Assembly (NCBI RefSeq): GCF_004005495.1
Contig: NZ_RZYA01000017.1
Coordinates: forward strand, 1-64,000
Length of the DNA stretch: 64,000 bases
Direction: 5' to 3'
DNA from: Streptomyces antnestii
GTDB taxonomy: Bacteria > Actinomycetota > Actinomycetes > Streptomycetales > Streptomycetaceae
A program made the translations under genes and the position numbers. The notes below the pieces were generated by a model. The model saw nothing but the letters and a program-made list of their open reading frames with translations. It was not told the DNA's origin and did not search any database. Below are positions 40,953 through 43,891 of this stretch, in pieces (within the stretch, counting starts at the first letter, position 1; every line of letters starts with the position of its first letter).

Positions 40953-41219
40953 CTAGACCTCCCGCTCCTCCCCATCTTCCCGGAACAGCTCCTCGGTGTC
41001 AGCGGCCGTGACGGCGAGGTCGAGCCAGCGGTTGAGGGTGTCGGGGTCGGTGCAGGACGCGATGCGCTCCCGGGCGGCCTCGGAGACGGGGACGGCGCGC
41101 GCCTCCAGCACACGGAGGATCGAACCGGCTTGCCCCTCGGCCCTGCCTTCCGCAATACCCTCGGCCTTGCCTTCCAGGTACGCCTCTTCCCGGTACGATC
41201 CCCGTCCCGGGAAACGGCA
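40953..41219 (-). pseudogene. Duplicated C-terminal end of the adjacent Rpn-like gene
   Basis: Directly after the stop of the Rpn-like gene, the same reading frame continues for 88 codons to a TAG at 40953. It repeats the gene's own tail: REEAYLEGKA..., GQAGSILRVLE, AVPVSEAARERI, DPDTLN-WLDLAVT. Matching positions are offset by 258 bp (86 codons). The unit lacks the nuclease core and has no start codon with a binding site. It looks like the original 3' end left behind by a tandem duplication. Confidence 0.85.
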
Positions 41220-42116
41220 TCAGCTCTCCGGGTCCTCGGCGAACAGTTCCGCGCTGTCCGTCACCGTCACGGCGAGGTCGAGCCAGTGGTTGAGGGTGTC
41301 GGGGTCGTTGCAGGACGTGATGCGCTCCCGGGCGGCCTCGGAGACGGGAACGGCGCGCTGCTCCAGCACGCGGAGGATCGAACCGGCTTGCCCCTCCGCG
41401 GTGCCCACGGCCTTGCCCTCCAGGTAAGCCTCCTCGCGGAACGTGCCCCGGCCCGGGAAGTAGGTGACGAACGTCATCAGCTCTCTCCATGTCGCTCTGG
41501 CCGGGGTGTCCCCCAGGCCGATGTCCAGCATTTCGGAGTAGTACTCGGCGGACCTCTCGTCCGTCGCCCGCAGGGCACGAGCCAGGGCCTCAAGTATGGC
41601 CGGAGCATCCCTGCTGCGGCCATGCGTCATGGCCGAGAATGTCGCCATTGCCAGATCTCGTGCCGCCACCGACGCATCGGTGATCACCGGCACGTTGTCG
41701 GGGCCCAGGACCAGCGGGTGCGTGCTCTGCGCCGTCCATCCGTCGACGCCGCAGGTGAAGGGCCCGCACGCCCAGCTCGCTGTGGACCGCTCCTGGCAGA
41801 CCACCAGGAGCAGTACCAGTAGGTCGTACTTCGCCTTCAGATACGCGACGTAGTACGCCCAGCTCGACCCCTTCCTCTCGTCGCGCCGCCCCTGCGCCTC
41901 GATGGCGAGCAGGAACGCCTCCCCTTCGGACGGTTCGATCCGCAGCACGCTGTCCACCCGGCGTTCGAGGGGACGGATCTCCGTCACGTCGGCGGCGAGT
42001 ACTTCCACCACCGCTTTCGCGGGGATGGGAACACCCAGGAGCCCGAACACGGGCGTGAGGATCTCTGGTCGGTCCTGGAAGATCCGATGAGAGGCCTCGT
42101 GTGGCGATGTGACCAT
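41220..42116 (-). CDS. Rpn-like PD-(D/E)XK family protein
   Basis: 298 residues. The N-terminal half looks like the Rpn/YhgA-type nuclease-like fold (putative transposase family): LRIEPSEGEAFLLAIEAQGRRDERKGSSWAYYVAYL has the E-x-Q and downstream Arg/Tyr arrangement. The C-terminal part holds the EGKA/EGQA repeats and a helical tail typical of the large Streptomyces copy group. GTG or ATG near 42116 (MVTSPHEASHR). Its present stop arises at the junction of a 3' duplication (GAGAGCTGATG occurs both inside the gene and at the stop). DNA cleavage activity is plausible but unproven. Confidence 0.75.
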   Translation of the reverse strand: MVTSPHEASHRIFQDRPEILTPVFGLLGVPIPAKAVVEVLAADVTEIRPLERRVDSVLRIEPSEGEAFLLAIEAQGRRDERKGSSWAYYVAYLKAKYDLLVLLLVVCQERSTASWACGPFTCGVDGWTAQSTHPLVLGPDNVPVITDASVAARDLAMATFSAMTHGRSRDAPAILEALARALRATDERSAEYYSEMLDIGLGDTPARATWRELMTFVTYFPGRGTFREEAYLEGKAVGTAEGQAGSILRVLEQRAVPVSEAARERITSCNDPDTLNHWLDLAVTVTDSAELFAEDPES

Positions 42117-42190: not shown

Positions 42191-42616
42191 TCATGCGGTT
42201 GCCAGTTCGCACCAGACGTATTTGCCCGTGTCCCCCGTGCTCGTGAGCGGGTACCAGCCCCAGCCGTCCGCACAGCCGCGTACGAGCGTGAGCCCGCGCC
42301 CCGCTTCCGCGTCGGCGGCTGCCACATGCAGAGGGGGCGTGGGTGGAGTCGGGTCCGCGTCCCATACGCCGATACGGAGGATCAGGCCGGTCCAGCGCAG
42401 CCTGAGCGCGGCGGGGCCCTTGGTATGACGCAGCGCGTTGGAGACCAGCTCGGCGGCCAGCAGTTCGGCGACCTCCGCGATGCGGGGCAGGTCATGGGCC
42501 GTAAGGATCAGCCGCAGGGTGCGGCGGCTGATGGGGATCGCGCGGGCATCGTGCGGGATGTAGAGCGTGTACTCCCACGGTTCGGCTTCGCCGTCGGGGC
42601 TGCGGCTTTCGGGCAT
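42191..42616 (-). CDS. RsbW-like HATPase_c_2 serine kinase / anti-sigma protein
   Basis: 141 residues with the ATP-binding features of the anti-sigma kinase group: N box ELVSNALRHTKGPA, then GVWDADP, GRGLTLVRGCADGWGW. It starts with a charged region and ATG 42616. It is divergent from an XRE/DUF5753 regulator and a DUF397 gene, the three-gene arrangement called the whiJ/abaA type in Streptomyces. In those sets this protein is thought to act in the regulatory switch. A palindrome lies in the shared promoter region. Confidence 0.88.
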   Translation of the reverse strand: MPESRSPDGEAEPWEYTLYIPHDARAIPISRRTLRLILTAHDLPRIAEVAELLAAELVSNALRHTKGPAALRLRWTGLILRIGVWDADPTPPTPPLHVAAADAEAGRGLTLVRGCADGWGWYPLTSTGDTGKYVWCELATA

Positions 42617-42748
42617 GCGGGACTCCTGGTCAGGGAGGGTGAGTTCGGGCGAACGGTGGCCTTGTCACCGACGTCATGGCATGACGGGGTGGTGCACTTC
42701 CGGTGACCCGGGGTACCAGCATGTATGGGATACGTCACTGACAGTAGA

Positions 42749-42762
42749 GACTAAGGTTAGTC
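42749..42762. promoter_or_regulatory. Perfect palindrome GACTAA-GG-TTAGTC in the whiJ-like divergent promoter
   Basis: 6-2-6 symmetry, 86 bp before the XRE gene and 133 bp before the anti-sigma gene, in an AT-richer stretch with TAAGGT inside it. Good candidate for autoregulation by the XRE protein. Confidence 0.5.
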
Positions 42763-42847
42763 CGACGCAACCCGTTGTCGTACTCTTGTCACCCACAGCG
42801 GTGAACAACTGCCTTATCTGTGACTGGTGTTGAACAAGGGGGTGCGC

Positions 42848-43696
42848 ATGCCTCGGAAACAGCCGACGGCCCGCCAGGAGCGACTCGGCCGCGAGCTGCG
42901 CAAGTTGCGCGAGGCCGCCGGACTGACAGCTCGCGAGGCCGCACGGCTGCTCGGTGCGGTCCCAGTAACGATGAGCCAGATCGAGTCCGGAGTCGCCGGT
43001 GTCAGTGAAACCCGGGTGCGACGGCTGGCGGCTCACTACGACTGCGCGGACGCCGAGTTGATCGACGCCTTGGTCGAGATCGCCACGGACCGTACGCGCG
43101 GCTGGTGGGAGGACTACCGCGACGCGCTGTCGCCCGCCTTCCTGGACCTGGCCGAACTGGAGCATCACGCCACCTCCATGCAGGTGATCGGCACCGCCCA
43201 CGTACCCGGGCTGCTGCAGACCGAGGATTACGCCCGCGCCGTACTCGCCTACCGGGTCCCGGAGCTCCCGGAAGCCGAGTTGGCGCCGAGGGTGGCGCAC
43301 CGGATGCGGCGGAGATCCGTCCTCTCCCGCGAGGGAGCAGCACCGTTCGAGGCCGTAATTCACGAGTCCGTACTGCGAACGCGCGTCGCGGACCGCCGGG
43401 TAGCCCGGGAACAACTCGTCGAACTCCTGGCCCAGTCGGAACGACCGAACATCACTCTCCGGGTGATCCCGTTCGATGTCGACGGCTTCGGCGGTGCGAG
43501 CTCGATGATGCTTTACACGGCGGGGCGGGTGCCCGCATTGGACACCGTTCAGCGGGACGCGCCCTACGGATCTGTCTTTCTGGACGCCGCCGCTCAACTC
43601 CTGGCCATGCGAACACTCTTCCGTAAGGTGGAGTCTGTAGCGCTCGAGCCCGCCGAGTCGCGGGACTACATCCACCGCCTCGCGAAGGAACTGTGA
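42848..43696 (+). CDS. XRE-family regulator with DUF5753 (WhiJ-like)
   Basis: 282 residues. The N-terminal HTH_31 domain (RQERLGRELRKLREAAGLTA ... VPVTMSQIESG) is followed by DUF5753 (HATSMQVIGTAHVPGLLQTEDYARAVL ... EAVIHESVLR ... ITLRVIPF). These regulators pair with DUF397 proteins and influence development in Streptomyces. ATG 42848 has AAGGGGG at good spacing; a TTG at 42827 is less likely. The DUF397 gene follows after 3 bp. Confidence 0.93.
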   Translation: MPRKQPTARQERLGRELRKLREAAGLTAREAARLLGAVPVTMSQIESGVAGVSETRVRRLAAHYDCADAELIDALVEIATDRTRGWWEDYRDALSPAFLDLAELEHHATSMQVIGTAHVPGLLQTEDYARAVLAYRVPELPEAELAPRVAHRMRRRSVLSREGAAPFEAVIHESVLRTRVADRRVAREQLVELLAQSERPNITLRVIPFDVDGFGGASSMMLYTAGRVPALDTVQRDAPYGSVFLDAAAQLLAMRTLFRKVESVALEPAESRDYIHRLAKEL

Positions 43697-43699
43697 GTC

Positions 43700-43891
43700 A
43701 TGGTCCAGTGGCAGAAGTCCTCGTTTTCCGGACCCGGCGACGGCAACGAATGCGTGGAACTTGCCGATGCTGACGGCACGCTGCTCGTGCGCGAAAGCGA
43801 TGACCCCGACATAGAACTGACCGCGGCCCCTGCCGCGCTCGCGCAGCTCCTCCTCGGCGTGAAGTCCGGGCGAATCGGATCCGTCCGCTGA
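43700..43891 (+). CDS. DUF397 protein
   Basis: 63 residues, the family's normal size: WQKSSFSGPGDGNECVELA near the N-terminus and VRESDDPD in the middle. DUF397 proteins are always found next to DUF5753 regulators and probably bind or antagonise them. It starts 3 nt after the regulator stop, so translation is coupled. Its stop overlaps the inferred CTG start of the next gene. Confidence 0.93.
   Translation: MVQWQKSSFSGPGDGNECVELADADGTLLVRESDDPDIELTAAPAALAQLLLGVKSGRIGSVR

Follow-up and report, generated by a model that had tools for sequence, protein, structure and literature searches.

Genes of the rpn family in Escherichia coli make the protein RpnS from an internal start; this protein inhibits RpnL, a toxic nuclease (Zhong et al. 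2023, PMC10327210). According to that report, partner specificity is set by how many four-residue repeats there are, as tested for RpnC, and separate rpnS genes appeared downstream of rpnC and of rpnE in independent events. The product of the gene downstream of rpnE, ypaA, was detected (PMC10327210), though the RefSeq annotation lists ypaA as a pseudogene. In E. coli MG1655 (L195, 1905-3002), ypaA begins 12 nt past rpnE and lies in frame across its stop, and its repeat part exceeds that of the rpnE tail by four residues. Here we describe a Streptomyces locus that is, in our judgement, likely to be an RpnL/RpnS-like unit, in which a second copy of the tail would be an in-place duplicate of S that has lost its start and is probably a decaying spare.

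The locus lies in a 64-kb stretch of DNA, called the window below, from a draft genome of 8.93 Mb in 71 contigs. At least 181 of 295 genomes of the genus, the source genome counted, match its RpnL-like gene, and the 25 named loci recovered by one pattern scan are all from Streptomyces. Among the matches listed, the closest relative of the window locus is L033, at 71% protein identity, with nothing nearer. Loci for comparison were taken from the best matches in the 295 genomes, with eight candidates scored in each, and from the pattern scan, and form a non-random sample; L076–L083 were picked for hints of extra tails. We examined 146 loci, with L002–L010, L012–L031 and L057–L075 omitted as shorter records, mostly of places already covered. 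Once eight duplicates, two genes cut by contig ends and two orphan tails (L084, L085) had been dropped, 134 distinct loci including that of the window were left. The codon alignment excluded L056, whose frame differs, and included in part the genes with a broken 5' end (e.g. L078 and L138). The features of the gene and of its predicted nuclease domain are as follows.

41220-42116, minus strand: RpnL-like gene, an ORF of 298 aa with its TGA stop at 41222-41220.
41502-42116, minus strand: predicted N-terminal PD-(D/E)XK nuclease domain and the helical part that follows it (residues 1-205), from invariant columns and VIA-align rows.
41952-41954 and 41898-41900, minus strand: invariant D55 and E73 in an alignment of 75 proteins.
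41892-41894 and 41871-41873, minus strand: invariant Q75 and K82 in the same alignment.

Across the 75 aligned proteins, D55, E73-x-Q75 and K82 showed no variation. The 298-aa protein was modelled with AlphaFold2 at a mean pLDDT of 85.9, and residues 1-141 of the model were compared with known folds by VIA-align. The best row was a P. abyssi repair endonuclease (Z 7.4), followed by EndoMS (7.1), PaqCI (6.6) and, lower down, McrBC chain M (6.2), Card1 (5.4) and FokI (5.2); no fold match reached Z 8, and a best Z of 7–8 is usual where a model has no clear match. The nuclease rows for these residues, in the Z range 4–7, were mutually consistent, and most of the matches are enzymes that we take to belong to the PD-(D/E)XK class. 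Other rows paired the helical part of the model with unrelated proteins, and a Foldseek search with the 298-aa model returned nothing at E < 0.001. From its modelled fold, the window gene is predicted to encode a PD-(D/E)XK nuclease.

No family in Pfam, NCBIfam or PADLOC names the window protein; the sole row of its Pfam scan was HTH_31 (E 0.54), and NCBIfam gave none. The NCBIfam model TIGR01784 (Rpn family recombination-promoting nuclease) weakly matched 11 of the 75 proteins (best E 3e-4) and the Pfam model PF14261 (DUF4351) weakly matched 8 (best E 0.019), while PF04754 was absent from their Pfam matches. By the sequence models of the Rpn family (TIGR01784 and PF04754) the window protein is thus not a member; it shares with that family a PD-(D/E)XK nuclease domain, as judged from the invariant residues and a predicted fold at middling Z. 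Aligned by hhalign with E. coli RpnA/RpnE, the family profile gave an E of 0.0035 but a probability of 9.3%. A profile of the 75 proteins found nothing credible among solved structures, and the RpnA-S structure (PDB 7th0) was missing from its match list. For the tail itself, the 88-aa sequence of copy 2 had no Pfam match at E 0.1 and the source genome no match to PF14261, and neither gave the sequence match expected of a stand-alone PF14261 (DUF4351) tail. NCBIfam FliH models matched up to 17 of the 75 proteins (best E 1.2e-8), presumably because of charged repeats. Carriage by a phage or plasmid was considered and set aside: a scan of viral contigs, sensitive to close relatives alone, gave no relative, and a plasmid collection gave two distant records, from Nocardia and Nonomuraea, at 31–35% identity. 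Going by the model, the window protein would act like an Rpn nuclease; by sequence it is not placed in the Rpn family.

In the adjoining part of the window, 42191-43891, the minus strand has a weak match to HATPase_c_2 that lies under the Pfam cut-off. The plus strand encodes an HTH/DUF5753 regulator and, after it, a small ORF of 63 aa that we presume to resemble DUF397 proteins.

Beyond the nuclease part, the locus holds two tails and two copies of a putative start signal, all on the same strand.

41475-41489, minus strand: putative internal start TGG AGA GAG CTG ATG, with the Shine-Dalgarno (SD) sequence GGAGAG and the ATG at 41477-41475.
41220-41477, minus strand: gene within the gene for a predicted 85-aa RpnS-like tail protein (coding 41477-41223, then the stop), from the conserved internal start.
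40953-41219, minus strand: second tail copy (copy 2), 88 codons and TAG (40955-40953), open and in the gene's frame past its TGA.
41139-41150, minus strand: additional four-residue repeat of copy 2 (EGRA by DNA alignment), missing from the gene's own tail (copy 1).
41218-41229, minus strand: putative start signal of copy 2, a GGAG SD with an ATG (41220-41218), repeating 41475-41485 exactly.

The frame beyond the TGA is open for 88 codons (41219-40956) and, as a preliminary description of this DNA had claimed, repeats the tail of the gene. The direct repeat (40968-41162 and 41226-41420) covers 195 nt at 84% identity with an offset of 258; as protein, copy 2 is 81% identical to copy 1 (E 3.7e-33), and the repeat is far beyond chance. 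The 258-bp, in-frame offset given in that description holds for the tail core and is not uniform, falling to 246 ahead of a 12-nt insertion and to 257 at GAGAGCTGATG. The insertion is the extra repeat of copy 2, a gap of 12 nt in the DNA alignment and of 4 aa in the protein alignment, whose exact position among the repeats is ambiguous. We found no further copy of the gene or its tail in the source genome at E <= 0.001.

Within the 64 kb of the window, the element GAGAGCTGATG is found at exactly two places, 41218-41228 and 41475-41485. The preliminary description had rightly placed it at the junction and inside the gene; its reading as mere microhomology was not supported, since the element belongs to a conserved ribosome-binding site and start. 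Judged by codon conservation across relatives (below), GAGAGCTGATG is part of the Shine-Dalgarno/ATG site inside the gene. The gene's TGA is the cTGAtg of copy 2 read in a different frame, which agrees with the earlier proposal that the duplication created the present stop. Copy 2 is without 11 nt directly past its ATG, and for this reason the shared ATG is not in register with the tail of that copy: it overlaps the stop as TGATG, lies one base off the tail frame and opens into an unrelated 73-aa frame. Both tails are also covered by an ORF of 163 aa in a different frame (40999-41490, minus strand), probably a by-product of high GC content.

Between copy 2 and copy 1, dN/dS is 0.39 and dS 0.38; with 84% identity, this dS indicates that the duplication is not recent. 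When 15 relatives were used to polarise the differences, 11 of 23 changes on the copy-2 branch proved synonymous, with 6 differences left unpolarised. The corresponding test for constraint, a weak one, gave p 0.015–0.055, varying with the assumed synonymous fraction, and on the copy-1 branch 5 of 14 changes are synonymous, which is not significant. Our reading of these sequences is that copy 2 was once used as a second S and later lost its start. The genome is a draft of 71 contigs, in which a mistake in sequencing or assembly could give the appearance of a frame break.

Copy 2 might instead still be translated as a second S, by ribosomes that finish at the TGA, restart at the overlapping ATG and slip +1 in the first few codons, or from a start elsewhere. 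The past constraint on copy 2 and its intact frame beyond the start region would suit this, as would the TGATG overlaps at L168 and L247, in both of which the start shares the frame of the tail. However, copy 2 has no listed in-frame ATG or TTG, its only GTG lies 108 nt in without an evident SD, and the other 20 tail-only copies require no slip, so that we consider continued translation unlikely. Loss of the start remains our preferred reading of copy 2.

Across the loci compared, a second tail downstream on the same strand, the counterpart of the separate rpnS gene that is sister to the upstream tail in RpnL/RpnS systems, was present in 32 of the 134 loci, or in 28 of 126 without the eight loci chosen for hints of extra tails. 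The preliminary description had called for this comparison of tail copy number, and would have counted against a duplication the short form without a second tail. We found the short form in 102 of the 134 loci; it does not argue against duplication, and shows that the copy is an addition in some lineages. A DNA tree built from 168 tails placed 15 of the 35 downstream copies (14 loci) exclusively with their own upstream tail; the protein tree did so for 12 of 35 (11 loci). The window copy did so in both, as sister of copy 1 with support of 0.986 (nucleotide) and 0.914 (amino acid), and the description of an Rpn-like nuclease gene with its own tail duplicated in place was thereby upheld. Since a number of downstream copies cluster with their own upstream tails, in-situ duplication has recurred. 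The copied segment begins just upstream of the internal SD in several loci (L136, L184) and extends further upstream in L158 and L179.

These data also bear on a different origin for copy 2, as the remnant of a tandem full-length paralogue whose nuclease part was deleted. Arrays of rpn genes formed by tandem duplication have been reported (PMC10327210), L045 has a second, broken full-length copy nearby, and orphan tails occur (L084). We nevertheless hold this origin to be quite unlikely: copy 2 is closest to its own copy 1, there is no trace of an N-domain in 1.5 kb downstream at L001, and the copied part, where it does not reach further as in L158 and L179, starts just upstream of the internal SD. 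A copy of the tail and its start signal, made in place, accounts for the locus better.

That the tail has a start signal of its own is indicated by the codons used at the internal site. In the codon alignment of 133 loci, that of the window included, the Arg codon that forms the SD is part of a Trp-Arg pair directly ahead of the tail and is AGG or AGA in 110 of 110 cases. These codons make up 12% of Arg codons in these genes and 42% in the next best of 35 Arg columns; in three other genes of the window they account for 9 of 193. Three codons past the Trp-Arg pair, the start column is ATG in 89 of the 133 aligned genes. Where it encodes Val, the codon is GTG in 29 of 29 (background 38.5% of Val codons; next best of 49 Val columns 84%), and where it encodes Leu, TTG in 4 of 5 (against a background of 5%). 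One of these three codons stands exactly at the start column in 122 of 133 genes and within -1 to +4 codons of it in 133 of 133, compared with a mean of 26% and a maximum of 78% in 44 control windows. A strict SD-plus-start pattern was found in 103 of 133 genes at the internal site and in 9 of 133 at the next-best column. The 133 loci are related and taken from best matches, and their codon counts are non-independent draws. We read 14 additional loci by eye, five of them from other genera, after two repeats of earlier loci had been removed; all 14 have the internal site, and the Arg codon is AGG or AGA in 12 of 12.

From the conservation of AGG/AGA, GTG and TTG and the single-column peak of the SD-plus-start pattern we infer an internal SD and start codon. 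At the level of sequence, the conserved codon pattern is the mark of a ribosome-binding site with its start codon and goes beyond a protein motif alone. An internal start yielding a C-terminal tail, as in RpnL/RpnS, is thus indicated by codon conservation in 133 and 14 loci, and a tail protein of 85 aa is very probably a second product of the window gene, in the manner of RpnS from the rpn genes of E. coli. In the AlphaFold2 model, this tail is a long helix with four-residue repeats followed by short helices. It is very unlikely that the codon bias reflects some other constraint and that the tail protein does not exist: the Arg codon, the Val codon and the spacing converge at one site, where the SD-plus-start pattern stands at 103 against 9 of 133, and the bias is kept in other genera and found with most of the well-preserved duplicated tails.

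To compare tail-only copies with their genes, we used 20 of the 32 loci with a downstream tail (21 copies) and set aside nine loci with an extra N-domain and three whose four copies are decayed or divergent (L107, L113, L182). All well-preserved copies except that of the window (20 of 21) have a start no more than three codons from the homologous place; the others without a listed start are the L107 copy and the third L113 copy, both from the decayed or divergent group. The proposal in the preliminary description that ribosomes pass the TGA and yield a long protein with two tails is extremely improbable, for although the frame is open and aligned over the TGA for 88 codons and 7 of 10 downstream copies with a fused domain are in the gene's frame, tail-only copies occur in all three frames (5 of 25 in that of the gene, 14 and 6 in the other two) behind TGA, TAG or TAA, the well-preserved ones have starts of their own, and E. 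coli ypaA, in frame across the rpnE stop, is yet reported as a separate gene (PMC10327210).

The fused ORFs, of 116-155 aa, join a tail to an unrelated three-helix N-domain and were seen in L035, L037, L040, L108, L110, L111, L112, L117 and L122, with orphans in L235 and L236. At six of the nine loci a TTG lies 3 nt past the nuclease stop; with the copies mostly in frame and a TTG near the stop, read-through is possible at these loci. The helical N-domain was modelled with a pLDDT of 85.7; Foldseek found no credible PDB match for it (best E 2.8), and a 501-base stretch from one domain-fused ORF had no match in the plasmid collection. The product might serve as a third component, or as an antitoxin in modified form.

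Other arrangements were observed singly. L076 (G003:C13, 1306-2063) carries three tails in a row, its own and two downstream copies that are ~305 nt apart and almost identical to each other. In L084 an orphan tail (1480-1693 on the reverse complement) lies just ahead of the gene beginning MSIIGVGIDVAE, at the position that holds the complete gene in L044, L049 and L056, and looks like a relic left after the nuclease part was lost. The nuclease domain is divided between two frames, or interrupted by a stop within its frame, in L045, L079, L133, L144, L078 and L138, which suggests that the nuclease is inactivated now and then.

The two tails of a locus differ in units of four residues. In 21 pairs, all 19 gaps were of 4, 8 or 12 residues, which fits the earlier suggestion of tail diversification, and among internal tails of different loci with identity >= 60%, 727 of 936 gaps were multiples of four. 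The repeat regions of FPG-type tails fell into one length class modulo 4 in 73 of 76 cases; the 52 tails of the other type fell into two classes (21 and 31), with an ambiguous anchor. As in RpnL/RpnS, the first tail helix thus contains four-residue repeats in variable number. Repeat number differed in 19 of 21 own upstream/downstream pairs and in 770 of 903 pairs (85%) of internal tails from different loci with 60–90% identity; at identity >= 90% it differed in 4 of 6 cross-locus pairs and in 7 of 7 own pairs. We considered a selected mismatch between own tails and rejected it for now, as cross-locus tails differ about as often, and for the same reason the mismatch within pairs is explained by fast repeat turnover.

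Taken together, the observation of the preliminary description is confirmed and its interpretation supported in part. We regard the conserved internal start, the duplication in situ and the frame break as established at the level of sequence, and propose the following model. The full-length gene would encode the PD-(D/E)XK nuclease (L), and the internal ribosome-binding site and ATG (41475-41489) would give the 85-aa tail-only protein (S). S most likely pairs with the identical tail on L via the four-residue-repeat helix and may keep the nuclease inactive until, for example, phage infection; toxicity, inhibition by an antitoxin and phage defence are here proposed. The S module would then have been copied in place with its start signal, whose cTGAtg now stops the long gene. 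Copy 2 would have been translated separately, as a second S, while evolving under constraint; it would have come to differ by one four-residue repeat and since have lost a working start in the source genome, its ATG being one base off the tail frame. Because the ATG is out of frame, copy 2 is probably a decaying spare tail, presumably silent at present, that may still be able to recombine with the tail of the gene itself.

More tentatively, and as less likely than not, we suggest that Streptomyces holds widespread nuclease genes with an internal antitoxin, whose start-plus-tail cassette is repeatedly copied in place, changes quickly in repeat number, at times becomes fused to a new helical domain and is able, by recombination, to take the place of the nuclease tail. 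If so, a change in repeat number would shift partner specificity, by the rule found in E. coli, and the window would represent one stage of a cassette cycle.

The codon-level data are evolutionary evidence that, throughout a large actinobacterial family, one gene is nested inside another, and they extend the RpnL/RpnS idea past the species tested in the published study (PMC10327210). Loci with internal and downstream tails of mixed ages provide material on how an antitoxin embedded in a toxin is freed, diversified and lost. They also advise caution, since a tail repeat past a stop codon can be a separate gene rather than a read-through product.

Among known nucleases, EndoMS, PaqCI and McrC share the predicted PD-(D/E)XK fold of approximately residues 1-141, at Z below 8; we know of no intragenic inhibitor in enzymes of their type. 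TIGR01784 and PF14261 weakly match some of the 75 proteins and leave the window protein unmatched. The main text of the E. coli study does not mention Streptomyces (PMC10327210), and a literature search by title and abstract opening found nothing on such genes in that genus. The window locus differs from E. coli RpnL/RpnS in that its family is actinobacterial and too distant in sequence for Pfam or NCBIfam or for a confident profile match, and in that the ATG of its second copy is out of frame; the system here is known from sequence, that of E. coli from experiment as well. It resembles the E. coli systems, as far as these are described in that report, in having a PD-(D/E)XK N-domain and an internally started tail (both predicted here), in carrying repeats in the first tail helix, 8–20 residues past the start in E. 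coli and 19 in the window, and in a second tail gene directly downstream, as in rpnE-ypaA and rpnC-S, with independent origins in several lineages. As in rpnE-ypaA, the two tails of the window differ by four residues. Thus the kind is already known, its layout being shared by E. coli rpnE-ypaA; what is new is an actinobacterial family whose window member no Pfam or NCBIfam family names, codon-level evidence for the internal start, recurrent duplication and variants with a fused domain.
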